The translations under genes were made by a program, and so were the position numbers. 43,549 nt of DNA. It comes from a virus. Below, piece after piece: positions 4,677-43,549 of the stretch (its first letter is position 1; each line of letters begins with the position of its first letter). The DNA lies in IMG/VR virus record IMGVR_UViG_3300027868_000427, positions 1 to 43,549 of that record. One strand, given 5' to 3'. The notes beneath the pieces were generated by a model. The model was given only the letters and a program-made list of their open reading frames with translations, did no database searches and was not told the DNA's origin.

Positions 4677-4682
4677 TTTTAA

Positions 4683-4772: not shown

Positions 4773-4773
4773 T

Positions 4774-4850: not shown

Positions 4851-4864
4851 TTAAATAGTTTTTT

Positions 4865-26800: not shown

Positions 26801-27923
26801 CTAACCCTCCAATAATTTCTGTTTCATAAAAATTTGGAGTTGGAAAACTTCTTATATTATCTTCTTTTACAAACCCATTTACGTTAATTCTATATACACC
26901 ATTTGTGGCAGAATCAGAAACATATAGAGAGCTGTTAGATGATGCTGATCCGTTTAATCCAACAAAAGCTAACTCATTATTTACCCCAACACTAGACGTT
27001 ATATTAACAAATGTATAATCTGCGGATAACGAAGAGGATGTATTAGCGCTTAAAGCTGATATATGTTTATTACTAACACAGAAAAAAGATTTGTACCCTG
27101 ATAGTGTACCCTCTTCAACAGATAAAGAAGTAAGATAATTAAAATATTTTGACTCTACGGGGTCTCCACTAACATATTGAATATTTCTTGTATCACCATT
27201 AGGCCATAATTTAAATAAATTTGTGTTTTCTGAACCTTGTTGGTATTTTACTGCATCCGGGTTTGTGGCCAACAAACTTCCAAACGTGTTAAAAGATTGA
27301 CCACCAAAAAATAGACCACCGGGGGCAAATGTAGACAATTCAAATGCCGGCCAAGCGTTAAGACCACCATAAACATCGTTCCATCGATATGAATTAACTT
27401 GAAAATATGCACTTAATGCTTGTTGTGTTGCATATACTGCTAGAAAATCACCACCATATTCTCCTTTTGTTAAATCTATTGTTATTAGATCCCCTCTACG
27501 AGTTTCTGCTGAAGGGTTAATACCATAATAATCATACGCTACCGTATAAGTTTTATTATTTTCGTCTTCTACATAAAAATATGGCATTTGATCCAAATTT
27601 TCATTAGCGTGTGCTGTAACAGCTAAAGAGTAGGGGGTTAAATTTTTTAATATTATTTCTGTTTTTTGAGTAGCATATGTAGCTTTACCAATAAAACCTT
27701 CATATAATTTTGGAAGAGAGGGTTGAGCAATTTTAGATACAGAATATAGATACATTAAGTTTGATTGAAGCTTGTTAATGCTTGAATTAAAGTTATATCC
27801 ATTTACTAATTCATTAACCCCCAATAACACTTCATCTTTTGTATAGGGTAATTCTATTACAGAACTTAAACTTCTGTTGAACGTGTATCCGTAATCGGTA
27901 AATTCTGTTGAAATGTTTATCAT
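23802..27923 (-). CDS. Large virion structural/adhesin protein with propeller-like repeats, 1,373 aa
   Basis: The ATG at 27923 gives an ATGA overlap with the upstream gene; the longer frame begins only with TTG. Residues about 310-560 contain repeated beta-segments of the NHL/propeller kind (SSLYVSDSATNGVYRINVNG, DELYVYDQGNYCIKVYDKD, DNTMFVGTKQNIYKY). A central Cys-rich part (about 800-860: DCAEPPTIEEIVECDCF, DCMYSEETCLPPYD) probably carries disulfides or metal. Near 1150-1260 an Ig/CBM-like beta domain is suggested. The C-terminus is Pro/Lys/Glu-rich (EPEPEPKPGTDTP). No enzyme motif is visible. It is likely a tail or baseplate-associated adhesin. Confidence 0.6.
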   Translation of the reverse strand: MINISTEFTDYGYTFNRSLSSVIELPYTKDEVLLGVNELVNGYNFNSSINKLQSNLMYLYSVSKIAQPSLPKLYEGFIGKATYATQKTEIILKNLTPYSLAVTAHANENLDQMPYFYVEDENNKTYTVAYDYYGINPSAETRRGDLITIDLTKGEYGGDFLAVYATQQALSAYFQVNSYRWNDVYGGLNAWPAFELSTFAPGGLFFGGQSFNTFGSLLATNPDAVKYQQGSENTNLFKLWPNGDTRNIQYVSGDPVESKYFNYLTSLSVEEGTLSGYKSFFCVSNKHISALSANTSSSLSADYTFVNITSSVGVNNELAFVGLNGSASSNSSLYVSDSATNGVYRINVNGFVKEDNIRSFPTPNFYETEIIGGLGGVRDNYSFNNPKILQFYKDELYVYDQGNYCIKVYDKDLGFVRNIRKSAFTKNNPPATVKLIDDKFYWLTTSGVFHILDNKLNPISQKQLYNFENSEVFIDFVVNESDNTMFVGTKQNIYKYFFNNINYIGRFDLSKSNIRNININFMTLLDVEGVSKLFVYVRKNEYGAILVFSEANGYENLLSNYNFDVYGVDEIKVEKNEFVSNFSYNKSIIKLLGNNLQLKNFITNVVTVSLLRDGGINYDGVSYFTEDDLTVLDYEPTLDNYIGTNEIFSRSVANRVLEKIYDYQLLLVSLFKNKVTPPPSQVNILSPTLDALMLEDFPGNANGYYRLETGTAIQASLEENPDLSAVFHGHDVTGGDVNPLENLVDNRDIILLENSVLKQVPIEDPGLNDCAEPPTIEEIVECDCFVTPFTTDCMYSEETCLPPYDLIDLDGMYTETIVTETNLCQPGWFEPRYETEGDTEGERSGSAATQYIIGWNRISETQLASTRFNHDSVREVTINDRKYKINLETVSGGVSTNYIRNPDDPMFDETLIDLNITPYGWGRFQTYVEGDTNGPDLGSMSMGTTWVKEAIYFNQEQVELAGKCQEDNSDGNDFEVSVQTPEGRQAALGVSGFTWTNPNKEENTVQRNTRDIIHKLDTSKQFGVLAYLSLNEDAVNYFGNVTSIGRKSFDTLNLNNQHRVDDTVFMMWKVPVPERFIGSWDYVGIDVTHFYYNVNHNCISAAQKDFFVYFDFFTKPGPNNITPPQLTKEQLLDQFMNPELTVNNTYELIFSNLNPSNETIEVSSNKKQIKLYDSGSDSLDTTFTINSGDATFSADGNFITGNSSVTIELEWDDSPSTSGKAVDSITINGVTWTQSQAKTGKEEKDVVLQAGYSVEGNVYDVNGCILYTLVKPNLEITKRIAEPEPEPKPGTDTPVVNKGQSGGIIKPGVILDPQDVKDLQEQLEHDPDFDLSVIGVQNADGDGFINPFTGQSASQGKGEKKPEPLKIKKPFTP

Positions 27924-30900
27924 TCTATTTCCCAATCAACTTTATTTAACTTGGTGTTAGCAGGAATCACGTCTTTTATTTGTTCTATTATATTATTTGA
28001 TATATCTGCTTGTAAGCTTTCTTCTGTAATTCCTGTATCAAGTAATTTTACGTTGAATAAATTGCTCTTTCTTCCTGGTAGCTTAAACTTAAATGTTCTT
28101 TCTATATGTTCAATATAATTTCTTTTACCTGTAGGTAGTTCAAAATATAAATCCTCGATCTTATTTCTTGATCTTATTATATTAGCTACATCATACAAAT
28201 AAAGCGGCGTATTATATATGTAAAAATCTTTTATCTTAAAATTACCGTAATTATAATAATTTACATCTTGTAAATTTTCGTTAAGTTTATTATTACCATA
28301 ACTTGCTTCTGTTCCAATATAAAATATATTATCAAAAATGGTACCATAACTATATTTGGAATTTTGAAAAGCGTATGTATCAACAATTAACCCGTCTACA
28401 TAAAAGTTAAATAATCCTTTTGTTGTATCTAATGAAGTTGTAAAATTATGATAACCGGGACTAATATTAGAAAGAGGATAACTTAAAGTTGCTTCTTCAT
28501 ATGTCTGCACATTATATATGTTAGGTAATCTTAATTTAACATCTAGTGTATTACCTGCATTATAATTGTTTAAAACGTAATTATAGTTGTTTATATTTCT
28601 AAGTAAGCTAAAAGAAGTCGGGTCTTTTTTAATAACGTTAATTGTAGAACTACTTATCTCTGCAAAATTTGTTTTTGTTCTAGTTATAAAAGGAAGGCAA
28701 ACATCAGTTGATGGTGAACTTGAATTACAACTTAAACTAAAAATGGTTAGATAATCGTCTACCAATTCACCATTATACCATTCACTTATAAGATCTAAAT
28801 TTTTACCCCAAGTACCCTGATTTTTTGTTATATTAGAAAGAGGTACTGATAAATCACCTTTGTTTGCAGATAGCTCGGAAAATGTATCTGTTATGTTTAT
28901 ATCATATTGATCAATAACTGCAAATCTATCTTGATCAAAGATCGCATAAAATATTCCATTATTATCAAACGTATAGTCATTTAGAACCTCTACCTCAATT
29001 TTATCATTAAGGGTATTATCCGTAATATTAAAATATTTTAAAATCTTTTCTGCATAAAAATATACATCGTTGTTTACAAATTTAGGATTAAAACCAGACA
29101 ACAAACAAACCGTATTTTCTTGAACAGCAATACTATTGTAAACGTCGCCTAGTTTTTTAACCGTATAACTTAAGTCAGAACTATGTTTAAGTTCTAAACT
29201 AGTAGAATCTAATCTATACCAATCAGTACCGTTTAAAATGAAAACATATTTACCATAAGAATAAAAATTAACGATTTTAAAATTATTAATTTCACTAATA
29301 TATTTTTTCTCTAATTTTGTACCAATATAATTATATTTGCTAACATGAGCAGTAGAATCAAATACTAAAAATTCACCATTAGGTTCTAATTTTTGAACAT
29401 TTATAATAATGTTATCATGTTTTAAGGTTCTTAATAACGTTCCAAAAGAATTATAAATGTATATGTCTTTTAAGTCAAATGTTACGGTATGAGGAGTAAT
29501 TCTTCTGTAGTTAAATATACCATACCCTCTATTTGTATAATTACCAACTATTTGAGATCCAAAAGGCTTAGACCAATCATCATTAAACATTTCAAACGTA
29601 ACAGAAAAATTATCAAAAGTTGATACATCGTCTAAACTCTTATCCATTGCTTTAGCAAAATAATTACCATCAAAAGATATTTCATTTATAAAATCTTGTT
29701 TAATATAAAATTTATCAAAATATCTTTCAAAATTGTCAAATATAATATTACTTGATAACCCGTTGACAAAAGACTCGCTATTTTCGTTTCCAATATGATG
29801 ATATGCGTATAAAGCCCCCTCTTCAAAAGTTAAGTTGCTTATTGTATCATACATATCATAGTCTTGATTATCAAACCCTACATTAGAACTAATTTGGTCA
29901 AAATTAGTATTTGGGAATAAATCTGTTGAACTTTCTGTTAAAGCATCATAATAAGACACGTTAGCAGGATTATAATATCTATCAACCCATAACCCTGGCA
30001 TATTAGGATCATCACCACCTGACAACCACGTACACAAATAAGCTCCTGTCTGCGTGTCAGATACATTACCAAACGGAGAACTAGATAAGTAGTCATTTAA
30101 TGTTTTAAAAATTTTATCTGAATAGTAAGGGGTATCACTAGGTATTGCTCCTGATATCACCAAGGAAGAATCATTAACGTTTAATTGTTGGTAAGGGTAT
30201 ATATTAAAAGGTATATGGAAATAGTTTAAACTATCCTTATATAGGATTTTTGAAATTGTGTAACCAGCATAACCTAGCCCGATATTATAATTACCCTTTT
30301 CTTGATTTACCCCGGTAAAAAGAGAATCATAATATCTATGTTTAAAAGCTGGTTCATTAATAAAAACACCACCTTCAGACTGTTCATTGTTTACGGTCTT
30401 TTCATTTTTAAGATTAATCAGATTAAGATTTAAATTTGCTTCTTTATATGGTTTAATAGAATAGAATTCATTATTGAATAAGAAGTTAGAATTGTAATCC
30501 GCAGTACTTTTTAGTGTATCGACTTGAAGTTGTGTTTTGTCTAAAGATTGTTTGTAAACATAATTTGAACTAGAAAGGGTATTTTGTAACGTATAGTAGT
30601 CTTTTCTTAGTCTGAATACGTTTTTATATCTGAAAGGAGTAATTGATATTGTTGATAATGCATTCCTAAAAGAAAGTAAATCATTGGCTTGATCATAATA
30701 CAAATAGTTTACTTTGTCATAAAGCTTTTTATAGAAAACAATTTGTTGATTTTCTTTATCATAAACGTAACTAAATTCACTTATATTTTCATTTTTACTT
30801 GATAGAAAAACAAATTTACTACTTACATAATCAAATCCCAAATATCTCTTTACATTATATGAATTCGATATATAGCACGTTTCATTATCAAAATTAAATT

Positions 30901-31285
30901 CTACTAAAAAGTAAGAATTATCAGATAAAGAATCAGTAAATGTAACATTTGCTGAATTTTTGCAAGTTGAACACAAATCGCTACCAACTGCTAAATATGT
31001 AGCAGGAGTTTCTGATACCATTATAAACGTTACGAATTTATAATCTTCTGGTACTTCCAGTTTATCTAAAGTAAGAATGTTCCTGTATTTGTTGCTGTTA
31101 GATAAGTAAAAGTTTGAATATTTGTTAGTCGAGGTATCTTTAGTTGCAGATAAGCATGTATCTAGTGTTAGATCTATTCCATGATAACTTGATTTCGAGC
31201 TTTTTAAAAAGTTAACTTGCTGGTCTAGATCATAATTAGCACTTAAACTGACTAAGTTATTGCTGGTAAGTACCTTAACATCCAT
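27920..31285 (-). CDS. Large virion structural protein with laminin-G-like region, 1,121 aa
   Basis: A beta-rich, Tyr/Asn/Ser-rich protein. Residues roughly 930-1055 have a LamG/concanavalin-like pattern: SPGYHNFTTSLDTTKGLFNF, YVDGLIVDTYAFQN, DNIFYIGTEASYG, then FKIKDFYIYNTPLYLYDVANI. That is the usual order of 'w-h-va...dg..lyvDG', 'l.iG' and 'gxid-d-v-iyn-al'. The preceding region contains propeller-like strands (FLVFDSTAHVSKYN and similar). It shares composition with the 1,373-aa protein and overlaps it (ATGA). An ATTAAATA box lies six bases before the ATG. It is probably a long tail-fibre or adhesin component that binds host glycans. Confidence 0.6.
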   Translation of the reverse strand: MDVKVLTSNNLVSLSANYDLDQQVNFLKSSKSSYHGIDLTLDTCLSATKDTSTNKYSNFYLSNSNKYRNILTLDKLEVPEDYKFVTFIMVSETPATYLAVGSDLCSTCKNSANVTFTDSLSDNSYFLVEFNFDNETCYISNSYNVKRYLGFDYVSSKFVFLSSKNENISEFSYVYDKENQQIVFYKKLYDKVNYLYYDQANDLLSFRNALSTISITPFRYKNVFRLRKDYYTLQNTLSSSNYVYKQSLDKTQLQVDTLKSTADYNSNFLFNNEFYSIKPYKEANLNLNLINLKNEKTVNNEQSEGGVFINEPAFKHRYYDSLFTGVNQEKGNYNIGLGYAGYTISKILYKDSLNYFHIPFNIYPYQQLNVNDSSLVISGAIPSDTPYYSDKIFKTLNDYLSSSPFGNVSDTQTGAYLCTWLSGGDDPNMPGLWVDRYYNPANVSYYDALTESSTDLFPNTNFDQISSNVGFDNQDYDMYDTISNLTFEEGALYAYHHIGNENSESFVNGLSSNIIFDNFERYFDKFYIKQDFINEISFDGNYFAKAMDKSLDDVSTFDNFSVTFEMFNDDWSKPFGSQIVGNYTNRGYGIFNYRRITPHTVTFDLKDIYIYNSFGTLLRTLKHDNIIINVQKLEPNGEFLVFDSTAHVSKYNYIGTKLEKKYISEINNFKIVNFYSYGKYVFILNGTDWYRLDSTSLELKHSSDLSYTVKKLGDVYNSIAVQENTVCLLSGFNPKFVNNDVYFYAEKILKYFNITDNTLNDKIEVEVLNDYTFDNNGIFYAIFDQDRFAVIDQYDINITDTFSELSANKGDLSVPLSNITKNQGTWGKNLDLISEWYNGELVDDYLTIFSLSCNSSSPSTDVCLPFITRTKTNFAEISSSTINVIKKDPTSFSLLRNINNYNYVLNNYNAGNTLDVKLRLPNIYNVQTYEEATLSYPLSNISPGYHNFTTSLDTTKGLFNFYVDGLIVDTYAFQNSKYSYGTIFDNIFYIGTEASYGNNKLNENLQDVNYYNYGNFKIKDFYIYNTPLYLYDVANIIRSRNKIEDLYFELPTGKRNYIEHIERTFKFKLPGRKSNLFNVKLLDTGITEESLQADISNNIIEQIKDVIPANTKLNKVDWEIE

Positions 31286-31312: not shown

Positions 31313-33928
31313 TTAGTTTTCTCTTCTTTCAGATGCTTCGTAGTAATCGAACCTTTCGTGGAAACAAGGCGTTGCCAGCAAAATTGCAGGATTTATGTTG
31401 CCTTTAACGGTTTCTTGAAAAATATATGACATCCAAGTTTGTTCGAAGGGGGCTGCCCATGTTTCATCAAGAAACATTTTTTTGTTTCCTTCTCGTGATA
31501 CAATTTGTGGCCAATTACAATAAAAGATCTCTCCATCTGCATACGCTAACCCCTTTTCATTTTTAATTGATTTAAAATTTGTTAAAGGTGCATTAGGATC
31601 TAATCCATTTGCTGGTAAAAATTTCTTTTCAGGCCAATGCCGTTCTCTTAATTCTTGAGGTACATTATACCAAGCCCATTGAACCCTGTTATCACCAAAG
31701 AATTCAGTAAAGCAAAACTTAAGAAAATCGTAACCTTCTCTTTCCATAATGGTATGTGTTTTATCATATAAGTCTTTAATATAAGTAGCAAATCCATTTG
31801 GACAAGTGCCTTTCCAATCAGTATGAATGTACATATCGTCTTCTAAAAAGATATAATAGTCACCATCTGTTTGTTCAAAATGTTCTGCTACCCATTGACG
31901 ACCTCCGCAAATACCAATATTGTCTTTTTTAATTTGAGTAAAGTCCCAAGTTTCACATACCCTATCATATTCTGCTTGAGTGGATTCGTCAGTAGAATTG
32001 TTCAATACAACCTTTTTAGTATTATATAAAAACTTTTCTCTTTCTGCCCAATTCTCGCAAAGCTTTTCAAACTGTGAAGGAGAATTATAGGTAATAACAT
32101 AAAGGTATGTTTTAAGTTCGTCTATAGATCTTATTTTCTTAGTAGTGATTAAATCTACAGTATCGTTTTTTAGATTCTCAAAAAAGCATTCAATTAACCC
32201 ATCATCTCTTATCATTACACGATCAATTATATCGTCGTGCTTATACGATAAAATGGTGAATATTGATTCTTCTGTCCCCATTTGTTCTTCATCCAAAGTA
32301 GCTTTTAAGTAGTCGTAATACAAACTATTAACATCGCTAATATAGTCTTTGTGTCCACCAAATATACCAGCTCTTGCAACAAATGTTGTTTTATCGACAT
32401 TACAATACTCTCTTAATCTATCATGATCAAATCCGTGAATTTCATGATTCTCATAAGGGAAACATATAAACAAAAACTTTTGCAAGTAATGATGAATTTT
32501 GTTTATTACTTTATCGTGGGTAAAATACCCTTGATGTATTGTATTAGTTATGGCGCCATCAACCCATAAAAAATAATCTGTATCAAAAGGGTTAGATATT
32601 CTTGCATCATTTAGCATAAACATCTTAGACATTACCATAGGATTATAAAGCTCTAACCCAGCTTGAGTACTTTCGGGGAGCCAGGATGCTTTGTTATACC
32701 ATTCCGGGTTAGAGCGAATCTTTTGAACTTGATCGAAAAATTCGAACCAAGTTTTAAATTCTTCTGCAGGTTTTACTATAACCTGAGTGTTTTCTGGAGA
32801 ACGATGTTCCCACACTAATTCTTCATACTCCGGGTCTATATAAACAATCATCGGAGTATCTGTTTTTAAAAGTTCTATTAATTTATCTGTATAATGAGAG
32901 AACGGTCTATTAAAACTCTCCGCTAAGGTATCCCTCTTTAAATCCCAAATACCAGTTACTATAGTAGTCTTGCTCGGGCCTTCATTAGAGTAAACCTGAG
33001 CTGGCTTCTCCGGTACGTTATCGATTTGATATGCTTCTGGTTCAGGTTCTTTGTAATCATCATCCCCTGATTCAACATTTTCTGGGACATCTACATAATT
33101 ACCGTCTTTATCTAATCTATACCCGGTATTTTCTATACATAAACCTAGCTTTTCTACTTCTGGCCACCTTCTATTATTTTTAATAAACTCTAAATGTTCA
33201 TTTTCAAAAGCCATTATATCACAACCCTCTTGATTGCATAAAGTATAACCAGATGTTATCAGTCTTGTAAATAATTTGTCAAGGTTACCATCTTCACTAT
33301 TAAACAATTCAAACTTTATAACTTTAGGTCTGTACTTTTCTAAATCAAATCCTTCAAATACCCAATAGTCGTGTCCTTCAGTGTCAACTGTAACATAATC
33401 AATTCTTTCTATGTTATGTTTTTCTAGTAAACTATTCAAAACAACAACCGGTACTTCACACATTTCACCATGTTCATCTAAAAGTGCTTTACTTTTAGGA
33501 TCAGAATCAAACCCATTAACCGGAGGAATAAAACTAGCCATTCCTTTTAAAGGGTAATCTAATTCTAAATTGTCAATTTTATCCCATGGAATATAGCACA
33601 TGGTTTCAACTTTCATTTCGTTAGATACTGCTACATTCTCTAATATAACTTTATCGTTTTTTAATACCTCTGTATAATAGTTTGATAACGCTTTAAATGC
33701 ATCCGGTAAGGGTTCAATAAACAACCCGCCCCATCTATATAGCGATATATAGCCAGCCATAGTGTCATGAAAATGACCATCCATTGCACCAACAGAAAGA
33801 CAAAAAACTTCATTATCTTTTTTTCTTCCAGCATTATGAAGAGAAATATCAAACATTCTCTCTACTTGCCAAGTGTTATATGGTGTTAATTTTTCTTGTA
33901 ATTTGTTATCTAGTTCTCTATCACTCAT
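31313..33928 (-). CDS. Three-domain glycan enzyme: FkbM methyltransferase + HtrL-like GT + GT-A glycosyltransferase
   Basis: A fusion of three activities. Residues 40-245 are FkbM-like: LSVGAMDGHFHD (44-55), FIEPLPDAF (70-78), VDTEGHDYWVFEG (181-193). After an acidic linker (about 280-315), residues 320-590 are HtrL/WlaTC-like: TTIVTGIWDL, YNPMVMSKMFML (428-439), FLWVDGAI (453-460), related to the gene at 723. Residues about 595-865 are a GT-A domain: YLYVITYNSPSQF, then YYIFLEDDMYIHTDW with the acidic metal motif. The start at 33928 gives an 8-bp overlap (ATGAGTGA) with the upstream GT60-like gene; an ATG 15 bp earlier is possible. It follows the two GT60-like genes, so it probably extends and methylates the same glycan. 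Confidence 0.8.
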   Translation of the reverse strand: MSDRELDNKLQEKLTPYNTWQVERMFDISLHNAGRKKDNEVFCLSVGAMDGHFHDTMAGYISLYRWGGLFIEPLPDAFKALSNYYTEVLKNDKVILENVAVSNEMKVETMCYIPWDKIDNLELDYPLKGMASFIPPVNGFDSDPKSKALLDEHGEMCEVPVVVLNSLLEKHNIERIDYVTVDTEGHDYWVFEGFDLEKYRPKVIKFELFNSEDGNLDKLFTRLITSGYTLCNQEGCDIMAFENEHLEFIKNNRRWPEVEKLGLCIENTGYRLDKDGNYVDVPENVESGDDDYKEPEPEAYQIDNVPEKPAQVYSNEGPSKTTIVTGIWDLKRDTLAESFNRPFSHYTDKLIELLKTDTPMIVYIDPEYEELVWEHRSPENTQVIVKPAEEFKTWFEFFDQVQKIRSNPEWYNKASWLPESTQAGLELYNPMVMSKMFMLNDARISNPFDTDYFLWVDGAITNTIHQGYFTHDKVINKIHHYLQKFLFICFPYENHEIHGFDHDRLREYCNVDKTTFVARAGIFGGHKDYISDVNSLYYDYLKATLDEEQMGTEESIFTILSYKHDDIIDRVMIRDDGLIECFFENLKNDTVDLITTKKIRSIDELKTYLYVITYNSPSQFEKLCENWAEREKFLYNTKKVVLNNSTDESTQAEYDRVCETWDFTQIKKDNIGICGGRQWVAEHFEQTDGDYYIFLEDDMYIHTDWKGTCPNGFATYIKDLYDKTHTIMEREGYDFLKFCFTEFFGDNRVQWAWYNVPQELRERHWPEKKFLPANGLDPNAPLTNFKSIKNEKGLAYADGEIFYCNWPQIVSREGNKKMFLDETWAAPFEQTWMSYIFQETVKGNINPAILLATPCFHERFDYYEASERREN

Positions 33929-35279
33929 TATCAAAAATTCCATTTTCTACTTCATATTTCGATCTCGGGGTCCTTAAATCATTTGGACCTATCCTATCTA
34001 ACCAACCTTTACTTTTACTATGTGGTAATACTGCCCAAGATCTAGGCTCTTTGTCAGAGCAAAACTTTAAGAAAAAGCTTGCATTGTCTTTTGCTTTTTC
34101 TTCACCTAATCTCCATTCATTTAAATCTTCTCTATATATCTCTTCACCATCTTTATCGTGAGCTGTAACAGCCCAGAAATCACAATCTTCATGTTCTGGT
34201 GTTTTAATTTGATCACCTGATATCCAAATATCTACGCACCAATTTCTCCCGAAATCATTTAACCAATCTTCTTTAGTTGCATACATTTCAGGGTTGTCAA
34301 CGTAATTTGGTGTAGGTGGTTCTTGTCTTTGAGGCCAAGTATACTCCATAACCCCTCTTCTATCAAATTTAATTCCTGCATATCTTTCATAATCTTCTAA
34401 AGTTCTTTCTTGACCAAAACCAAACTTACCAAAATCTATAGAATCGGGGTCTGTATCATCCATACCAAACAAAGTTCTATTTCTAAAATGACATGCATTA
34501 TTAACTGAAATCCAACCTGCTGTTCCATCAGAATCTACATCATGATCTTCCCAATGTTTATCTCTTCCTTCTCTTGTATATTCATGCCAACAAATTGTTT
34601 TATGTGGGTGAAATAAATCGTAACCATGGGTAAATGCTCTTACTGCAATGCTAATTTCTTCACCATGAAAATAATAATCTGGATCATGCGGGACTTCTTC
34701 ACAAAATTTACCTAAAGTAAAACAAAAATGAGCTGAATAAAATCTTGATCTCATAGGCTCAACCCTGGTCATCCAATCTGGAATAGTAGAAGGTAAAAAG
34801 AAAATAGCTCCTTCAGGAATAAATCTATCATACTCCATAAACCATGGGTCTTTTTCTCTACCTTCTGGATCATTTGATGGTTTATAAGATGGTATATACG
34901 CTGTTAATAAAGGCTTTTCATGACCCTTTTTTTGTAATTGATTCATCATATCAATACAAAGCGTATCCCACCCAGGGGCAAATCTATGATGCGAATCTAA
35001 TTGTAAGGTATATGTTTCACCATCATACTCATTTTGTACAATATTTCTAGCCCAACACACTCCTTTAGCTTCTTTCCAAGGTACATTAACCACTCTAAAT
35101 CTAGCATCATTTTCATACTCTGGTATATCATCAAATAGATCTCCTTCTTTAAATTGTCTACATATACCAAATCTTAAATTTTCTGGTTTATGAGCATTAT
35201 CTATACAACTCTTTAAAGTAATAGGGAGTTCTGGGTCTCTATACGAGGCAATTTGAATAAAAATAGTTTCGTCTTTCAT
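33921..35279 (-). CDS. GT60-like polypeptide GlcNAc-transferase homologue (PF11397), 452 aa
   Basis: Resembles the 'Glycosyltransferase (GlcNAc)' family, whose characterised eukaryotic members attach GlcNAc to protein Thr or hydroxyproline. Landmarks in order: IFIQIASYRDPEL (residues 6-18), GVCWARNIVQNEYDGE (73-88), LQLDSHHRFAPGWD (92-105) with the D-x-H metal/nucleotide motif, FYSAHFCFTLGKFCEEVPHDP (180-200, split here by eye), FHGEEISIAVRAFTHGYD (204-221) and WHEYTREGR (231-239). The last 120 residues are an extra domain shared with the paralogue upstream. An SD-like AGGAT lies upstream. It is cotranscribed with the paralogue and the three-domain enzyme. Acceptor protein is inferred, not shown. 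Confidence 0.8.
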   Translation of the reverse strand: MKDETIFIQIASYRDPELPITLKSCIDNAHKPENLRFGICRQFKEGDLFDDIPEYENDARFRVVNVPWKEAKGVCWARNIVQNEYDGETYTLQLDSHHRFAPGWDTLCIDMMNQLQKKGHEKPLLTAYIPSYKPSNDPEGREKDPWFMEYDRFIPEGAIFFLPSTIPDWMTRVEPMRSRFYSAHFCFTLGKFCEEVPHDPDYYFHGEEISIAVRAFTHGYDLFHPHKTICWHEYTREGRDKHWEDHDVDSDGTAGWISVNNACHFRNRTLFGMDDTDPDSIDFGKFGFGQERTLEDYERYAGIKFDRRGVMEYTWPQRQEPPTPNYVDNPEMYATKEDWLNDFGRNWCVDIWISGDQIKTPEHEDCDFWAVTAHDKDGEEIYREDLNEWRLGEEKAKDNASFFLKFCSDKEPRSWAVLPHSKSKGWLDRIGPNDLRTPRSKYEVENGIFDNE

Positions 35280-35301
35280 AGCATCCTGTTAATAATTTAC
35301 T

Positions 35302-36846
35302 TTACTTCAAGTTTGGATCCAGCTGTTTCTCAATCTTATCCAGCCACCCTACATCTTTAATGCTCGGTATAACTGTATAACTTGTAGGTCTTGCATCGCA
35401 AACCAAACCTATTGGGAATCTTGCAGCATGTGGATCTTGTCTCTCGTCGTAAATTTCTTGAATCTTATCTATAGAAAAATCTTCTCTTACTAGTTCGTTT
35501 CCATCTTCGTCATGAACACCAACATACCAAAATTCAGTATCATCATATGATTCGGGTAATTCATCCCAAGGAATAAAAAAGTCAATACACCAATTTTTTA
35601 ACCATTTAACATCTTCATAAGGCGTTCCGTCATTTGGATATACCGGGTTAACACCGTCTTTTACTTCTTGAGTAATAGCTCTTTTTCTAAAATGAATACC
35701 CGAATAGTGTTGATATTCTTCTACTGTTCTAACATCCCCGAAACCATATTCATCACCAAAATTTATTTGATTAGGATCTTCACCATCCATACCAAATAAA
35801 ATTCGATTTCTTTTATGGCACATTTCATTTACTTCCCACCAATCGTGTTGACGACCTTGTTTTTTGTTACAATCATCCCAATGATGAGGTCTTCCTTTAC
35901 GGGTATATTCATGATAAGCAATTATTTTGTTAGGGTGAAATAAATCATAACCATGTGTAAATGCTCTTACTGCAATGCTAATTTCTTCTCCGTGGAAATA
36001 ATAATTAGGATCATGAGGTACTTCTTTACAAAACTGACCACTTGTAAAACAGAAATGAGCGGAATAAAATCTAGAAGGAATTGGTTCTCTTAATTCTTTA
36101 TCAAACATAGAAGTAGGTAAAAAGAAAATAGCTCCTTCAGGAATAAATCTATCAAATACCATCTTCCACGGGTCTGTTTCGAATCCATTTTCCATAGAAT
36201 ACTCACCAGAATCATCACTATTTTCTAACCAAGGCTTATAACTTGTTATATATCCTGTTAATAGGGGTTTCGGGTGACCTTTTTGTTGCAAGTAATAATA
36301 CATGCTTTTCAATTTAGAATCCCAACCAGGAACAAATCGATGGTGAGAATCAATTGCTAAAGTAAATTCTTCTTCACAATACAAATGTTGAATAGAATGC
36401 CTTGCCCAACACGTACCATGGCCTCTTTTATTATCTACGTCAATAATTTGGAATCTTTCATCCTTCATATAATCGTACATTTCTTTATCAAAATCATCTT
36501 CCATGTTATGTTGCCAGCAAATACCAAATCTTAAATTTTCAGGGTTATCTGCATTATCTATCATACTAACTAAAGTTGGGATGAGTTCTGGGTCTCTATA
36601 TGCAGCAATTTGAATGAATATTTGTTGATTACCTTTTAAATGGGAGGGGAAGTCTTCATGATAATTATCGCCTACAATATCTTCGTTTGTTAGAACATAT
36701 GGTTGTGGATCATTTTCTGGTATTGAAACTACCCCTGAACTTCTTTCATGTTCAGAATGATCTACTTCTGATACTTCAGTGGTAGTTGTTTTTTCGGTAT
36801 TTTTATTTTTTAACCTACTCTTACGATAGATTTTTATTCCTGGCAT
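35302..36846 (-). CDS. GT60-like polypeptide GlcNAc-transferase homologue (PF11397), 514 aa
   Basis: A paralogue of the following gene with an extra ~75-residue N-terminus that is Lys/Arg-rich, then Glu/Ser-rich and probably disordered (KIYRKSRLKNKNTEK). The same catalytic landmarks follow: IFIQIAAYRDPEL, GTCWARHSIQHLYCEE, LAIDSHHRFVPGWD, FYSAHFCFTSGQFCKEVPHD, FHGEEISIAVRAFTHGYD and YHEYTRKGR. The ATG at 36846 is preferred over an upstream TTG in the same frame. A TTGAAC-N16-TAAAAT promoter lies seven bases before it. It is the first gene downstream of the Thr-X repeat protein, with only 38 bp between, making that protein the obvious candidate acceptor. Confidence 0.82.
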   Translation of the reverse strand: MPGIKIYRKSRLKNKNTEKTTTTEVSEVDHSEHERSSGVVSIPENDPQPYVLTNEDIVGDNYHEDFPSHLKGNQQIFIQIAAYRDPELIPTLVSMIDNADNPENLRFGICWQHNMEDDFDKEMYDYMKDERFQIIDVDNKRGHGTCWARHSIQHLYCEEEFTLAIDSHHRFVPGWDSKLKSMYYYLQQKGHPKPLLTGYITSYKPWLENSDDSGEYSMENGFETDPWKMVFDRFIPEGAIFFLPTSMFDKELREPIPSRFYSAHFCFTSGQFCKEVPHDPNYYFHGEEISIAVRAFTHGYDLFHPNKIIAYHEYTRKGRPHHWDDCNKKQGRQHDWWEVNEMCHKRNRILFGMDGEDPNQINFGDEYGFGDVRTVEEYQHYSGIHFRKRAITQEVKDGVNPVYPNDGTPYEDVKWLKNWCIDFFIPWDELPESYDDTEFWYVGVHDEDGNELVREDFSIDKIQEIYDERQDPHAARFPIGLVCDARPTSYTVIPSIKDVGWLDKIEKQLDPNLK

Positions 36847-36853
36847 CAAAAAT

Positions 36854-36881
36854 ATTTTACTATTTTCCCCGGGGAGTTCAA
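36854..36881 (-). promoter_or_regulatory. Sigma70-like promoter for the GT60 genes
   Basis: On the minus strand TTGAAC (36881-36876), a 16-bp spacer containing CCCCGGGG, and TAAAAT (36859-36854) are followed by seven bases to the ATG at 36846. Spacing matches the leaderless-type promoters on the plus strand. It fills the whole gap after the repeat-protein stop, so the glycosyltransferases can be expressed separately from the fibre gene. Confidence 0.6.
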
Positions 36882-36884
36882 CTG

Positions 36885-39800
36885 TTACGCGTAAGTCATG
36901 TTAATAGAATCTATACAAATATCTGCTTGATATGTATAAATTGTACTTCCAGATGTATAAAAGAAGGATATATATTGCTGTGTAGAAGTTGGGTTAGAAT
37001 ATGAAAAGGTTTTCTTAATCCAAGCAGAAGTACGATCCCCTTGTTGCTGACCTGTTAAGGTGGTGCCTGCTAAATATGTATATGCATTTATATGAGATGA
37101 ATGCCCAGCTGTAACTTCTAACGCACCTACATTACCTCCAAACATATAATACCAGAAACCACAAGTAACTGTTTTACCGCTTGGACAACTATTACTTCTC
37201 ATAATAATACCAAAAGATACACTAGGGTAGTTCGGTGATGATGTTTCGCAATAGATAAATCTATAACTACTGGAACTATTTTGAGTTCCAGATGTTGCCG
37301 TGGCACTTGAATCAACAACACCACCTGTTGAAACCCCGGTACCACCACTAGGTGTACTACCATAATCGCACTGAAAGCTTCTTGTTGTAGTTGTTTTAAA
37401 ACTAGAAGTAGATACCCGATATGCACCAGCATAATAATCTGTTGCTGGACCGGTTGTTGGTGTTTGTAATGAAACTGCTCCGGTTTGAGACGTTGTTGTA
37501 GGTGAATTGTTTACATTTTGAAATAATATAGTCGTGGCTGCTGCACCGCCGGCTGATGGCGATTTAGTAGGTGTTCTTGTTTTAGTAGGTGTTTTTGTTT
37601 TTGTTTTAGTACTCGTTGGTGTTCGTGTTTTACTTTGTGTAATTGATTTCGTTCTTGTAGGAGAACTCGTAGGAGTCCGCGTTTTACTTTGCGTTATAGA
37701 CTTCGTTCTTGTTGGTGTTTGTGTTCTAGTTTTAGTTTTAGTTGCTGTATATGTAGGTGTTCGTGTTTTACTTTGTGTAATAGATTTTGTCCTCGTAGGT
37801 GTTCGTGTTTTACTTTGTGTGATAGATTTCGTTCTTGTAGCGGTACGTGTACTACTTTGTGTAATAGATTTAGTTACTGTAGGTGTTCTGGTTTTAGTTT
37901 GTGTAATAGATTTTGTTCTCGTAGGTGATACTGTTTTGGTTTGTGTGATAGATTTCGTTCTGGTCTGTGTGATAGATTTAGTTCTAGTAGGCGAAACGGT
38001 TCTTGTTGGCGTTCTAGTTTTAGTTTTAGTTTGGGTAATAGATTTCGTTCTTGTAGGTGTTCTTGTTCTTGTAGGTGTTTGTGTTCTTGTTTTAGTTTGT
38101 GTAATTGATTTCGTTCTTGTAGGTGTTCTTGTTCTTGTAGGTGTTTGTGTTCTTGTTTTAGTTTTCGTTTTCGTTCTTGTATATGTAGGTGTTCTTGTTC
38201 TTGTAGGTGTTTGTGTTCTCGTTCTCGTATATGTAGGTGATTGTGTTCTGGAACGTGTAGGAGTTTGTGTTCTGGTTTTTGTTTTGGTCTTCGTATACGT
38301 AGGTGATTGCGTTCTTGTAGGTGTTTGTGTTCTAGTTCTTGTAGGTGTTTGTGTTCTTGTTTTTGTTCTTGTAGGAGTACGTGTTTTACTTTGTGTAATA
38401 GATTTCGTTCTCGTTGGTGTTCTGGTTTTAGTTTTCGTACTAGTAGGGGTTTGTGTTCTTGTACGAGTAGGTGATTGTGTTCTTGTCGGTGTTCGTGTTT
38501 TACTTTGTGTAATTGATTTTGTTCTTGTTGGTGTTCGTGTTTTACTTTGTGTAATAGATTTCGTTCTCGTTGGTGTTCTGGTTTTAGTTTTCGTACTAGT
38601 AGGGGTTTGTGTTCTTGTACGAGTAGGTGATTGTGTTCTTGTAGGTGTTTGTGTTCTAGTTCTTGTAGGTGTTTGTGTCCTCGTTTTGGTTTGTGAAGGT
38701 GTTCTCGTTCTCGTTGGTGTTTGTGTTCTAGTTTTGGTTCTAGTTCTAGTTGCTGTTTGTGAAGGTGTTCTCGTTCTCGTTGGTGTTCTCGTTCTCGTAG
38801 GTGTTTGTGTTCTTGTGCGAGTAGGTGATTGTGTTCTAGTAGGTGTTTGTGTTCTAGTTTTAGTTTGTGTAATTGATTTCGTTTTCGTAGGAGTAACGGT
38901 ACGTGTCGGTGTGCGTGTTTTTGTTTTGGTTTGTGTAATTGATTTCGTTCTTGTAGGTGTTTGTGTTCTAGTTTTAGTTTGTGTAATTGATTTCGTTCTT
39001 GTAGGTGTTCTTGTTCTTGTTCTCGTAGATGTAGATGTTTGGGTTTGTGTTGGTGTTTGTGTTCGTGTAGCTGTTTGAGTAGACGTTCTTGTATATGTTG
39101 GTGTTCTTGTTCTTGTAGGTGTCTGTGTTCTTGTTCTTGTTTTTGTAGGTGTTTGAGTTCTGGTTCTTGTATTTGTAGGTGTTTTTGTATTTGTAGATGT
39201 TTTAGTTTGTGTTGGTGTTTGTGTTCTCGTTGGTGTTTGTGTTCTAGTTCTTGTTTGAGTTGTGGTTCTGGTTTGTGTAGGTGTCTGTGTTCTGGTTCTT
39301 GTTCTTGTTCTTGTAGGTGTCTGTGTTCTGGTTTTTGTTTGTGTGGCTGTTCTTGTACTAGTCGGTGTTTGGGTTCTTGTTCTCGTAGCTGTTTGAGTTG
39401 GTGACTGTGTTGGTGTTTGTGTTCTCGTTCTTGTTTGTGAAGGTGTTCTAGATCTTGTAGGTGTTCTTGTTTTTGTTCTTGTATTTGTAGGTGTTTTTGT
39501 TTGTGTAGGTGTTTGTGTTCTCGTTCTCGTTCTAGTAGACGTTCTTGTATATGTTGGTGTTCTTGTTCTCGTAGCTGTTTGTGTTGGGGTCTGTGTTTGT
39601 GATGGTGTTCTAGATCGAGTAGGTGTTTGTGTTCTTGTTTTAGTTTGTGTAGATGTTTGTGTTTGAGATGGTGTCCGTGTTCTGGTTCTTGTTCTTGAAG
39701 GGGTGACCGTTTGTGTAGCTGTTCTTGTTCTCGTGGGTGTTTGTGTTCTCGTAGGTGTTTGTGTTCTAGTTTTTGTATTTGTAGTAGTTGATGTTTGTGT

Positions 39801-42800
39801 TGGTGTTTGTGTGCGTGTAGCTGTTTGTGTGGCTGTTCTTGTTTGTGTTGGTGTTTGTGTGCGTGTTTTAGTTTGTGTAATTGATTTAGTTACTGTAGGT
39901 GTAACCGTTTGTGTGGGTGTTTGCGTGCGTGTCCTAGTTTGTGTGGCTGTTTTAGTTTGTGTTGGTGTTCTTGTTCTTGTAGATGATTGTGTTGGTGTTT
40001 GTGTTTGAGATGGTGTCCGTGTTCTTGTTTTAGTTTCGGTAATTGATTTCGTTCTCGTTGGTGTTTGTGTAGCTGTTGGTGTTTGTGTTCTTGTTCTCGT
40101 AGATGTAGATGTTCTTGTCTGGGTTGGTGTTCTTGTTCTCGTAGCTGTTTGAGTTGTTGTTTGTGTGTTTGATGGTGTTCGAGTTCTAGTAGAATCGGGT
40201 GTATCCGTTCTGGTAATTGTTCTAGTACTTGTAGGTGTTTGGGTTCTCGTAGCTGTTTGTGTTGGTGTTTGTGTAGGTGTCTGTGTTCTTGTTTTTGTAT
40301 TTGTAGGTGTTCTTGTTTGTGTACGTGTTTGAGTTTGTGTAGCTGTTCTACTTTGTGTAGTTGTTTGTGTCGGGGTTTGTGTAGGTGTTTGTGTACTGGT
40401 TTTCGTTTTGGTTTGTGTTGGTGTTTGCGTACGTGTACTAGTTTGTGTAGCTGTTCTTGTACGAGTAGGTGTTTGTGTGCGTGTTTGAGTTTGTGATGGT
40501 GTACGGGTTATTGTTCTCGTGGGTGTTTGAGTTCTTGTTCTCGTGGGCGATTGTGTACGAGTCTGTGTTTGTGTAGCTGTTCTTGTTTGAGAAGGAGTTC
40601 TTGTTCTTGTAGGTGTTTGTGTACTGGTTTGAGTCTGGGTTGGTGTTCTTGTTCTCGTAGGCGTTTGCGTTCTTGTTTTTGTCTGTGTGCGTGTACGAGT
40701 CTGTGTTTGTGTAGGTGTCTGAGTCGGTGATACGGATCTAGTAGGTGTTTGTGTTCTGGTTTTAGTTTGTGATGAGGTTTTAGTGTTTGTAGGGGTTTGT
40801 GTTTGTGTAGGTGATTGCGTAATTGATTTAGTTACAGTAGGTGTAACAGTTTGCGATGATGTTCTTGTATTTGTAGGAGATTGCGTTCTCGTCTTTGTTT
40901 GTGTTGGTGTTCTTGTATTTGTAGGCGTTTGTGTGCGTGTCGGTGTTTGTGTACTAGTAGCTGTTTGTGTGGCTGTTCTTGTTCTCGTAGGTGTTTGGGT
41001 TCTCGTCTTAGTTTGGGTGGGGGTTTGAGTTCTTGTTTGAGTTATTGTTTGCGTGGGTGTTTGAGTTCTGGTTATTGTTTGTGTGGGTGTTTGAGTTCTG
41101 GTTTTTGTTTGTGTACGGGTTTTAGTGTTTGTAGGTGTTTGTGTTTGTGTGGGTGATTGTGTAATAGATTTAGTTACAGTAGGTGTAACAGTTTCCGTTG
41201 ATGTTCTAGTATATGTAGGTGATTGAGTTCTCGTCTTTGTTTGTGTTAATGTTCTTGTATTTGTGGGTGTTTGGGTTCTCGTAGGTGTTTGTGTACTAGT
41301 AGCTGTTTGTGATGGTGTTCTTGTACGAGTAGGTGTTTGAGTTCTTGTTTTTGTATTTGTAGCTGTTTTAGTTTGTGTAGGAGTTTGTGTCCTAGTTCTT
41401 GTTTGTGTAATTGATTTAGTTACTGTAGGTGTAACCGTTTGTGTGGGTGTTTGTGTTCTGGTTACTGTTTGCGAAGGTGTTCTTGTTCTCGTTTGTGTTG
41501 GTGTTTGAGTTCTGGTTTGTGTGGGTGTTTGAGTTCTGGTTCTGGTTTGAGTAGGTGTTCTTGTCTGTGTTGGTGTTTGTGTTTTAGTTCTCGTTCTCGT
41601 GGGTGTTTGTGTAGGTGTTTTAGTTTGTGTAGTAGTTGATGTTTGTGTCGGTGTTTGTGTGCGTGTAGCTGTTTGAGACGGTGTTACTGTTTGAGTAGGT
41701 GTTCTTGTTCTAGTTACTGTTTGTGATCTAGTCGGTGTTTGCGTTCTAGTCCTTGTTTGTGTGGGTGTTCTAGTTATTGTTACGGTAGGTGTCTGTGTTT
41801 GGGTTTGTGTTTGAGTAGGTGTCTGGGTTCTGGTTTTAGTTTGTGTAGCTGTTCTAGTTTGGGTAGGTGTTTGTGTTTGAGTTGGTGTCTGTGTTCTGGT
41901 TTTTGTTTGTGTGGGTGTTCTAGTCTGTGTTTTTGTTCTTGTTGTTGTAGGGGTTTGTGTTCTCGTCCTTGTTTGTGTAGGAGTTCTAGTCTGAGTTTGT
42001 GTTTGTGTTTGAGAAGGTGTTCTCGTTTGTGTTGGTGTTCTGGTTCTAGTTGGTGTTTCAGTTCTTGTATTAGTAGGTGTTTGAGTAGGTGTTCTAGTTC
42101 TGGTTCTAGTAACTGTGCTAGTAGCAGTCCTACTTTGAGTAGGGGTTCTTGTTCTTGTAGGTGTTTGTGTACCGGTTTGAGTCTGGGTTGGTGTTCTTGT
42201 TCTCGTAGGCGTTTGCGTTCTTGTTTTTGTTTGTGTAGGCGTTTGTGTTTGTGTAGGTGTTTGGGATTGAGTAGGGGTTTGTGTCCTAGTTCTTGTTGAT
42301 GTACGTGTGTTAGTGGGTGTTTGTGTTCTAGTTTTAGTTTCTGTAGGTGTTCTTGTTTGTGTAGATGTTTGTGTTTGTGTAGGTGTTCTTGTTCTTGTAG
42401 GTGATTGTGTTCTAGTTTTGGTTTGTGTTCTGGTTCTAGTCTGTGTATTAGTTCTTGTATTAGTTTGTGTAGAAGTTTGAGTAGGAGTTTGTGTTCTGGT
42501 TTTAGTATTTGAAGGTGTTCTAGTTTGAGTAGGAGATTGTGTTTGGGTTGGCGTTTGTGTTTGAGTTGGCGACTGCGTCGGTGTTTGTGTTTGCGACGGT
42601 GTTCTCGTTCTAGTTGGGGTTTGTGAACGTGTTTGAGTCTGTGTAAGTGTTCTTGTTTGTGTAGGCGTTTGTGTACGAGTACCTGTTTGTGTGTTCGTTG
42701 GAGATTGTGTTCTAGTTCTAGTTTGCGTCGATGTTCTAGTAGGTGTTCTCGTTTTCGTTTTTGTCTGAGTCGGTGTCTGAGTCGGTGATACGGATCTAGT

Positions 42801-43549
42801 CGGTGTTTGCGTTCTGGTTTGTGTTGGTGTTTGTGTAGATGTTTGAGTAGGTGATTGTGTTCTTGTAGGTGATTGTGTTGGTGTTCTTGTACGGGTAGGT
42901 GATTGTGTAATTGATTTTGTAACTGTTGGAGTTATTGTTTGTGTAGGTGTTTGTGTTCTGGTTCTAGTTAGAGTAGCTGTTCTTGTATTTGTTGGTGTTC
43001 TAGTTCTTGTAACAGTATTAGTTGGAGTTTGTGTTTGTGTTTGAGTTGGTGACTGTGTCGGTGTTTGTGTACGTGTTTTAGTTTGCGTCGGTGTTCTTGT
43101 AGATGTTTGAGTAGGAGTACGTGTTCTGGTTTTCGTCTTGGTTGCTGTAGCTGTTTGAGAAGGTGTTCGTGTTGGTGTAGATCCAGGCGTATCCGTTCTT
43201 GTTATAGTTCTGGTTTGTGTAGGTGTTTGTGTTCGTGTCGCTGTTTGAGATTGAGTAGGAGTTTGTGTTCTCGTTGTAGTTTGTGTAGGTGTCTGAGTTG
43301 GTGTTTGCGTTCTTGTTCTCGTAGGTGTTTGGGTTCTGGTTCTAGTTTGTGTTAATGTTTGTGTAGATGTTTGAGTAGGTGTTCTTGTTCTGGTAGGTGT
43401 TTGTGTACGTGTTTTAGTTTGAGTAATTGATTTTGTAACTGTTGGTGTTGTTGTTTGTGTAGGCGTTTGCGTTCTAGTTTTGGTCTGCGTTCTAGTTTGT
43501 GTTTGAGAAGCTGTTCTCGTTTGTGTAGCTGTTCTCGTTCTTGTAAGTG
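36885..43549 (-). CDS. Giant Thr-X repeat (mucin-like) protein with C-terminal MAM-like domain; N-terminus outside window
   Basis: One minus-strand frame is open from the right edge to TAA at 36885: at least 2,221 residues. I read it line by line for stops and found none. From about 37561 to the edge nearly every second residue is Thr (sometimes Ser); the others are mainly Pro, Arg, Gln and Lys (TRTQTPTRT, TKTRTPT), with periodic KSITQ(T/S)K blocks. After a short SPSAGGAAATT linker comes a non-repetitive C-terminal domain (about 37580-36888). It contains GSTPSGGTG, CETSS, a CGFWYYMFGGNVGALEV segment and WIKKTFSYS, ending DICIDSINMTYA. This is the order seen in MAM domains. It is probably a very long virion fibre or stalk with an adhesive tip, and its Thr density makes it a plausible O-glycan carrier for the adjacent GT60-like enzymes. 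Confidence 0.8.
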   Translation of the reverse strand, partial: LTRTRTATQTRTASQTQTRTQTKTRTQTPTQTTTPTVTKSITQTKTRTQTPTRTRTPTQTSTQTLTQTRTRTQTPTRTRTQTPTQTPTQTTTRTQTPTQSQTATRTQTPTQTRTITRTDTPGSTPTRTPSQTATATKTKTRTRTPTQTSTRTPTQTKTRTQTPTQSPTQTQTQTPTNTVTRTRTPTNTRTATLTRTRTQTPTQTITPTVTKSITQSPTRTRTPTQSPTRTQSPTQTSTQTPTQTRTQTPTRSVSPTQTPTQTKTKTRTPTRTSTQTRTRTQSPTNTQTGTRTQTPTQTRTLTQTQTRSQTPTRTRTPSQTQTPTQSPTQTQTPTQTQSPTQTRTPSNTKTRTQTPTQTSTQTNTRTNTQTRTRTQTKTRTQSPTRTRTPTQTQTSTQTRTPTETKTRTQTPTNTRTSTRTRTQTPTQSQTPTQTQTPTQTKTRTQTPTRTRTPTQTQTGTQTPTRTRTPTQSRTATSTVTRTRTRTPTQTPTNTRTETPTRTRTPTQTRTPSQTQTQTQTRTPTQTRTRTQTPTTTRTKTQTRTPTQTKTRTQTPTQTQTPTQTRTATQTKTRTQTPTQTQTQTQTPTVTITRTPTQTRTRTQTPTRSQTVTRTRTPTQTVTPSQTATRTQTPTQTSTTTQTKTPTQTPTRTRTKTQTPTQTRTPTQTRTRTQTPTQTRTQTPTQTRTRTPSQTVTRTQTPTQTVTPTVTKSITQTRTRTQTPTQTKTATNTKTRTQTPTRTRTPSQTATSTQTPTRTQTPTNTRTLTQTKTRTQSPTYTRTSTETVTPTVTKSITQSPTQTQTPTNTKTRTQTKTRTQTPTQTITRTQTPTQTITQTRTQTPTQTKTRTQTPTRTRTATQTATSTQTPTRTQTPTNTRTPTQTKTRTQSPTNTRTSSQTVTPTVTKSITQSPTQTQTPTNTKTSSQTKTRTQTPTRSVSPTQTPTQTQTRTRTQTKTRTQTPTRTRTPTQTQTSTQTPTRTRTPSQTRTATQTQTRTQSPTRTRTQTPTRTITRTPSQTQTRTQTPTRTRTATQTSTRTQTPTQTKTKTSTQTPTQTPTQTTTQSRTATQTQTRTQTRTPTNTKTRTQTPTQTPTQTATRTQTPTSTRTITRTDTPDSTRTRTPSNTQTTTQTATRTRTPTQTRTSTSTRTRTQTPTATQTPTRTKSITETKTRTRTPSQTQTPTQSSTRTRTPTQTKTATQTRTRTQTPTQTVTPTVTKSITQTKTRTQTPTQTRTATQTATRTQTPTQTSTTTNTKTRTQTPTRTQTPTRTRTATQTVTPSRTRTRTRTPSQTQTSTQTKTRTQTPTRSRTPSQTQTPTQTATRTRTPTYTRTSTRTRTRTQTPTQTKTPTNTRTKTRTPTRSRTPSQTRTRTQTPTQSPTQTATRTRTQTPTSTRTATQTKTRTQTPTRTRTRTRTQTPTQTRTTTQTRTRTQTPTRTQTPTQTKTSTNTKTPTNTRTRTQTPTKTRTRTQTPTRTRTPTYTRTSTQTATRTQTPTQTQTSTSTRTRTRTPTRTKSITQTKTRTQTPTRTKSITQTKTKTRTPTRTVTPTKTKSITQTKTRTQTPTRTQSPTRTRTQTPTRTRTPTRTRTPSQTATRTRTKTRTQTPTRTRTPSQTKTRTQTPTRTRTQTPTRTQSPTRTRTQTPTSTKTKTRTPTRTKSITQSKTRTPTRTKSITQSKTRTPTRTQSPTRTRTQTPTSTKTKTRTPTRTKSITQSKTRTPTRTKTRTQTPTRTRTQTPTRTQSPTYTKTKTKTRTQTPTRSRTQSPTYTRTRTQTPTRTRTPTYTRTKTKTKTRTQTPTRTRTPTRTKSITQTKTRTQTPTRTRTPTRTKSITQTKTKTRTPTRTVSPTRTKSITQTRTKSITQTKTVSPTRTKSITQTKTRTPTVTKSITQSSTRTATRTKSITQSKTRTPTRTKSITQSKTRTPTYTATKTKTRTQTPTRTKSITQSKTRTPTSSPTRTKSITQSKTRTPTSTKTKTKTPTKTRTPTKSPSAGGAAATTILFQNVNNSPTTTSQTGAVSLQTPTTGPATDYYAGAYRVSTSSFKTTTTRSFQCDYGSTPSGGTGVSTGGVVDSSATATSGTQNSSSSYRFIYCETSSPNYPSVSFGIIMRSNSCPSGKTVTCGFWYYMFGGNVGALEVTAGHSSHINAYTYLAGTTLTGQQQGDRTSAWIKKTFSYSNPTSTQQYISFFYTSGSTIYTYQADICIDSINMTYA
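36888..37382 (-). other. MAM-like adhesion domain (C-terminus of the giant protein)
   Basis: About 165 residues in MAM order: FQCDYGSTPSGGTG, SYRFIYCETSS, then RSNSCPSGKTVTCGFWYYMFGG followed by NVGALEV. The remainder is W-IKKTFSY and ADICIDSI(N)MT. In MAM domains the equivalents are the 'GSTPS-GTGP' entry, 'Y-yvE-S', 'C-L-FWYhMyG...GsL.V' and 'dIAiDdI.l'. Four Cys residues are present. The call is by motif order, without a profile search. Confidence 0.65.
37561..43549. repeat. ~6-kb degenerate tandem repeat, G/T-rich on plus strand, coding Thr-X on minus strand
   Basis: The basic unit is 6 bp (Thr codon plus variable codon), kept in one frame over the entire span. Thr codons vary freely (ACA, ACT, ACG, ACC), so the protein pattern is conserved better than the DNA. 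Larger duplicated blocks exist: 38380-38486 is identical to 38536-38642 (107 bp, offset 156). Blocks at about 40598-40681 and 42146-42229 are nearly identical (offset 1,548). A TRTITRTDTP block is repeated 2,988 bp apart (40191 and 43179). Confidence 0.9.

Follow-up and report, generated by a model that had tools for sequence, protein, structure and literature searches.

The window, a stretch of 43,549 nucleotides that is identical to a complete IMG/VR record, is a fragment of a T4-like phage. Profile searches resolved a minus-strand block running from position 43547 down to 15592, in which a gene for a Thr-X repeat protein stands first and gp23 last:

36885-43547, minus strand: Thr-X protein ORF of at least 2220 aa, its 5' end lost at the contig end
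37527-43547, minus strand: Thr-X stalk of at least 2007 aa, proposed O-glycan acceptor, in which Thr or Ser fills 998 of the 1003 register positions
36885-37526, minus strand: C-terminal tip of the Thr-X protein, about 215 aa, MAM-like (PF00629), proposed binding tip
35302-36849, minus strand: GT60/PF11397 glycosyltransferase, 515 aa (E = 1.8e-68), proposed polypeptide O-glycan initiator
33921-35279, minus strand: GT60/PF11397 glycosyltransferase, 452 aa (E = 2.8e-72), proposed polypeptide O-glycan initiator
31313-33943, minus strand: FkbM domain, HtrL/YibB glycosyltransferase and second GT-A domain in one protein of 876 aa, proposed to act in extension and methylation
27920-31285, minus strand: 1121-aa protein of the cassette operon, gene order kept in the related loci L005, L006 and L376
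23802-27935, minus strand: 1377-aa virion-structural-like protein of the cassette operon (phrog_32965, 1e-27), resembling cyanophage virion structural and PA14-domain proteins
18954-19574, minus strand: FkbM methyltransferase amid head genes (PF05050, 4e-14), possible glycan methylation
15592-17142, minus strand: gp23-type major capsid protein (PF07068, 3.2e-87), marker of the T4-like late structural operon

Spacing within the cassette is tight: 35 bp separate the Thr-X gene from the first GT60 gene and 22 bp the first from the second, while the second GT60 gene and the FkbM + HtrL + GT-A gene (hereafter HtrL-GT) overlap. Beyond the 1377-aa gene the block continues with a neck protein, a head-completion-type nuclease, the FkbM enzyme, an S77 prohead protease and gp23. 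The 1121-aa protein matched nothing in Pfam, PHROG or phage proteins, and both it and the 1377-aa gene were seen beside the cassette in L005, L006 and L376 alone, all of them close relatives; L005, a separate record, repeats the window architecture. No integrase or lysogeny gene was among the profile-search matches of the window. Several open reading frames antisense to the stalk, among them 37534-39078 on the plus strand, merely mirror the repeat and hence were rejected as genes.

The stalk register (909 Thr and 89 Ser among 1003 residues) is unbroken over 2007 aa, and all four Thr codons occur in it, which together indicate selection on the protein. The intervening X residues are chiefly Arg (272), Gln (264), Pro (196) and Lys (100). 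Expressed as shares, Arg accounts for 27%, Gln for 26% and Pro for 19% of X, compared with 30-45% Pro in most relatives; richness in Pro is a trait of classic mucin repeats. With 372 Lys and Arg against 7 Asp and Glu, the net charge is about +365. Strong basicity (Arg/Lys at about 36% of X) marks the window lineage, comprising the stalk at 37527-43547 and that of L005 (1-6204), which follows the same design; most relatives are neutral and rich in Pro, Asn and Val. A long, repetitive Thr/Ser-rich domain makes the predicted stalk mucin-like, and dense O-glycosylation is supported only indirectly, by the virion glycoproteins of Xanthomonas jumbo phage XacN1. By inference, in an extended chain the alternation would turn the Thr residues to the same side. 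The place of the stalk in the virion is likewise inferred, the only context being its operon, which includes neck, capsid and protease genes on the same strand.

ACA makes up 61% of Thr codons in the stalk and 41% in the other window genes. Of the three tRNAs of the window (4590-4941), Thr(TGT) decodes ACA and Arg(TCT) decodes AGA, in each case the most frequent codon of a residue that is among the stalk's two commonest. Both tRNAs are common in T4-like phages, and the idea that the tRNA-Thr was gained for the stalk is offered as a remark only.

The tip matches the MAM family barely above the threshold (PF00629, 2.2e-6; 28.0 bits, cut-off 26.4). Between the window and L005 the tips are 45% identical and the GT60 enzymes 90% identical; the tips differ among other relatives too. 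A divergent tip beside conserved GT60s is the pattern that a binding tip would give, and with a variable C-terminal tip on a repetitive shaft the Thr-X protein fulfils one criterion for a fibre. For the Thr-X proteins of five related loci no Pfam identity was found. Where Thr-X proteins matched PHROG, it was mostly through families that bear repeats and have no known function (phrog_15511), and such matches were uninformative on function. Domains of about 60 aa, of at least two sequence types, stand at the N-terminus ahead of the stalk in many related phages (L596, L601-L603, L606, L608 and others). They are confined to Thr-X proteins (59 of 59 ORFs) and could be a virion anchor or an enzyme recognition domain.

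A preliminary description of this DNA had assigned the two genes after the Thr-X gene to PF11397/GT60, and profile searching bore this out very strongly, with scores of 244.6 and 232 bits against a curated cut-off of 21; of the lengths it gave, 452 aa is correct and 514 aa becomes 515. The motif DSHxRF (D95-S96-H97) is invariant across 46 GT60 relatives, as are further Gly, Glu, His and Arg residues. AlphaFold modelled the 452-aa enzyme (pLDDT 89.8) as a GT-A fold with a DxH metal motif. In a fold search with this model, the 35 top PDB matches listed were almost all polypeptide GalNAc-transferases (best 3e-11), at moderate TM-scores of about 0.4-0.5. A PDB sequence search with the protein and its profile retrieved no homologue, so that the fold search alone gave matches. 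The model ends in a β-rich region of about 100 aa that remains unclassified; GT27 enzymes carry a ricin-like lectin domain at their C-terminus. Polypeptide GalNAc-transferases initiate mucin glycosylation in animals. In protists, it is GT60 members that start mucin-type O-glycans (PMC8724618). We found no biochemistry of a phage or bacterial GT60 in the literature. From family membership and the predicted fold we propose that the window enzymes are polypeptide-type initiators, with donor, acceptor and linkage inferred.

The third gene, previously described as a fusion of FkbM, HtrL-like and GT-A domains, proved to be one: FkbM matched at 1.4e-15, HtrL_YibB (PF09612) at 3e-7 (30.8 bits, cut-off 24.1), and the C-terminal glycosyltransferase domain through PHROG at 6.3e-6. 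HtrL_YibB is a bacterial family. The structural model contains two tandem GT-A domains arranged as in LARGE1, LH3 and K4CP; overall TM-scores are low (about 0.3), and the likeness is therefore limited to layout. Further candidate glycan genes lie elsewhere in the window:

1597-2283, plus strand: Galactosyl_T-type glycosyltransferase (PF01762, 1e-6), possible glycan extension
2575-3450, plus strand: RmlA-type sugar nucleotidyltransferase (PF00483, 1.3e-48), possible donor supply
3408-4244: PfkB kinase, candidate glycan gene
7908-8594, plus strand: Glyco_tranf_2_5 glycosyltransferase (PF13712, 1.2e-14), possible glycan extension

Profile matches uphold the RmlA, the sugar kinase and the second FkbM enzyme named in the preliminary description, from which the PF01762 and PF13712 glycosyltransferases were absent. 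Its two sulfotransferase-like proteins could not be sustained: the pair yielded a single weak match (14219-14941, E = 0.004) below the cut-off, leaving glycan sulfation unsupported. Adjoining the sulfotransferase-like gene is a QueF-like phage gene (7-cyano-7-deazaguanine reductase family; 13309-14217), which suggests 7-deazaguanine metabolism or modification.

We consider it probable that the locus is a cassette through which the phage adds mucin-type O-glycans to its own fibre, a reading in which acceptor, donor, linkage, virion location and role are inferred. It draws on sequence, predicted fold, operon context, a conserved trio of Thr-X, GT60 and HtrL-GT genes, and the recurrence of that trio in many phage lineages and in bacteria. 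A stalk encoded directly before enzymes that resemble mucin initiators, in a trio that recurs, suggests that these phages probably coat their fibres with mucin-like sugars. In the mechanism we envisage, the fibre-like protein would offer Thr or Ser at every second stalk residue and carry a fast-changing MAM-like tip at its C-terminus. The GT60s, built like animal polypeptide GalNAc-transferases, would act in the host cytoplasm and add the first sugar, most likely α-GlcNAc, to Thr/Ser of the stalk; the tandem-glycosyltransferase HtrL protein would lengthen the glycan, which may be decorated by the FkbM domain of that protein and by further enzymes of the locus. The glycosylated stalk would then be assembled into the virion as a stiff, hydrated bottlebrush that keeps the tip off the particle and either shields or mediates adhesion. 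The self-glycosylated fibre of the preliminary description is supported, having survived two of the three refuting conditions set there (no PF11397 match, no co-occurrence), while GlcNAc as the sugar, the stalk as a virion component and sulfation are not established.

The strongest competitor, which we regard as unlikely, is that the glycosyltransferases build or alter a glycan of the host surface (LPS, capsule), or else modify DNA, their place next to fibre genes being due to the joint exchange of host-interaction genes. PF11397 is indeed widespread in bacteria without Thr-X nearby, the cassette enzymes Glf, FkbM and methyltransferases occur in surface-polysaccharide loci as well, and the bacterial nature of the HtrL_YibB family fits. 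It has to contend, however, with a fold nearest to polypeptide-acceptor enzymes, with the lack of integrase or lysogeny genes in the window searches, and with the company the genes keep. PF11397 was present in 15 of 50 DNA records containing Thr-X repeats (35 had no GT60 on the contig). Among the controls, records fetched by an arbitrary 14-mer had it in 0/50 cases, those with collagen-type Gly-Pro-X repeats in 1/50 and those with a window-like capsid gene in 3/50 (Fisher, 1.8e-5, 1.7e-4 and 3.3e-3, respectively). Phages with collagen stalks thus rarely carry GT60, and two of the three positive capsid records (G101, G102) share the window gene order. Starting from GT60, a (Thr-X)7 run was found in 20/30 records, against 2/43 random and 3/35 capsid-positive records without GT60 (Fisher, 1.1e-8 and 1.1e-6). 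Among 80 viral loci fetched by HtrL-GT alone, 69 had GT60 and 56 a Thr-X gene; where the upstream gene was visible, a same-strand Thr-X gene lay directly upstream of GT60 in 52 of 63, mostly at gaps of 30-95 bp. The co-occurrence of Thr-X and PF11397 on which the preliminary description had made its reading depend therefore holds from all three independent starting points: Thr-X DNA, GT60 and HtrL-GT.

Shared ancestry inflates these raw counts and is not the full explanation, since the excess persists after clustering of the GT60s: Thr-X remained upstream in 23/34 at 95%, in 13/24 at 90% (P = 5e-8 against a background of 34/355) and in 5/14 at 80% (P = 1.6e-3). In one set of GT60 clusters taken without the HtrL-GT query, the signal is modest (Thr-X immediately upstream in 5/17 versus 11/274, P = 4e-4); the HtrL-GT loci strengthened it. 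On a quickly built tree of 92 GT60s from phages and bacteria, in which long branches are present, the Thr-X label requires 17 changes, at least 12 of them forced by well-supported branches.

GT60 loci without a nearby Thr-X gene are numerous (tandem pairs in L028-L040, Burkholderiaceae, cyanobacteria), implying that some members of the family act on other substrates. A second alternative, less likely still, takes up this point: other enzymes, host or phage glycosyltransferases, would glycosylate the stalk, and the GT60s would target the 1121- or 1377-aa protein, the capsid or the tail tube. The Thr-X records without GT60 on the contig and the GT60 loci without Thr-X leave room for it, and in mycobacteriophages it is the capsid and tail tube that bear glycans (Freeman 2023, as cited in PMC12619734). 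Yet across lineages the gene directly beside GT60 is Thr-X, not the 1121- or 1377-aa gene. Separately, we observed that several large phages (L028-L035, L039, L040) have GT60 genes arranged in tandem within a glycan cluster and no Thr-X or HtrL-GT nearby, and that G177 (288 kb), a record of the tandem-GT60 group, holds 2136 Thr-X pattern matches elsewhere.

Returning to the fibre-glycosylation cassette, the genes between GT60 and HtrL-GT differ among related phages. One insert (L008) comprises a UDP-galactopyranose mutase (6e-79), a PLOD-type glycosyltransferase, a GT10 fucosyltransferase and a methyltransferase, and another (L017) a rhamnosyl O-methyltransferase-like gene; the GT60s of these two loci are nearly alike, falling in one 85% cluster. 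The varying sets look like an exchangeable decoration cassette. Among 80 bacterial GT60 loci, a Thr/Pro-repeat gene lies within 0.5 kb of GT60 in Jiulongibacter sediminis and in bins of a Saprospiraceae, a Bacteroidia and a Gemmatimonas bacterium, with HtrL-GT adjacent or one gene further. The Saprospiraceae and Jiulongibacter Thr-X proteins begin with what looks, by eye and without a predictor, like a Tat-type signal, as if exported. The occurrence of the trio on bacterial chromosomes with exported-looking Thr-X proteins is a further argument against a host-glycan role. HtrL-GT and Thr-X are associated in bacterial GT60 loci (Fisher, 0.038); most bacterial GT60s have neither, so the family must have other substrates. 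Somewhat better than evenly balanced, in our judgement, is the broader proposal of a portable mucin module common to phages and bacteria, made up of three genes (Thr-X acceptor, GT60 initiator, tandem HtrL-GT extender) and an exchangeable decoration cassette, by which many large aquatic phages would bear self-made, host-independent fibre glycan 'serotypes'.

That the stalk is an unglycosylated low-complexity repeat, here a polycation, born of repeat expansion and acting as a flexible spacer, next to GT60 by coincidence or hitch-hiking, can draw on the repeat-rich DNA, the net charge of about +365 and the Thr-Pro linkers in records without GT60, but seems very improbable given a register held through 2007 aa while each of the four Thr codons is used, the association statistics and a pairing repeated in bacteria.

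Some observations do count against the mucin cassette that we favour: the strongly basic window stalk, unlike the neutral Pro-rich stalks of most relatives, the moderate TM-scores of the fold matches and the unnamed XacN1 glycoproteins, as well as the lack of biochemistry, the records in which GT60 and Thr-X occur apart and the share of the adjacency that comes from common ancestry. In the open-access literature we found no paper tying PF11397 or GT60 to phages. The statement in the preliminary description that no such phage system had been described needs qualification: this form is nowhere described as far as we found, whereas virion glycosylation is already known in mycobacteriophages and suspected in XacN1. 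What is new is the pairing of a mucin-like acceptor with its dedicated initiator of the polypeptide type, conserved as a module in phages and present in bacteria too. If this is correct, phages encode side by side a dedicated pathway of mucin-type O-glycosylation and the substrate for it, and bacteria have a counterpart; the XacN1 virion glycoproteins would have a possible origin; small cytoplasmic enzymes would become available for attaching O-glycans to designed Thr-X peptides in E. coli; and the study of adsorption, mucus adhesion and immune shielding in large phages would change. The prediction is simple, and the cultured phages XacN1, Stenotrophomonas RAS14 and CM1 allow it to be tested directly.

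Compared with known systems, the GT60s share the GT-A fold and DxH motif of animal polypeptide GalNAc-transferases (GT27), their best structural matches, although no sequence relationship to the GT27 PDB entries is detectable. HtrL-GT has the tandem GT-A layout of LARGE1, LH3 and K4CP, a resemblance of fold only. In mycobacteriophages, the glycosylating enzymes are reportedly phage-encoded. Virion proteins are glycosylated there as well, at the C-termini of capsid and tail-tube proteins according to the citing paper, whereas the window points to a proposed mucin-like stalk. The cultured relative XacN1 encodes a GT60 (ORF334, 46% identical), an HtrL-GT (ORF330, 41%) and a Thr-X protein (ORF350) whose gene adjoins a structural gene that we read as tail-tube-like, while ORF325 has Thr-Pro linkers and matches a virion structural family (5.6e-73). 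All three parts thus occur in both phages, with the XacN1 Thr-X gene apart from GT60. XacN1 virions contain at least two glycoproteins, not named in the main text, and its authors proposed that phage glycosyltransferases glycosylate virion proteins; in the main text the GT60, the Thr-X acceptor and the cassette are left unrecognised (PMC5852040). With the protist pp-α-GlcNAc transferases of GT60 (Trypanosoma cruzi mucins, Dictyostelium) the window has the Pfam family in common and, as proposed, a Thr-rich repetitive acceptor, and the UDP-Galp mutase and fucosyltransferase in the cassettes of related phages recall how protist mucins are extended with Galf and fucose (PMC8724618). Unlike the protist systems, the one proposed here is phage-encoded and presumably cytoplasmic, and combines acceptor and enzymes in one operon.
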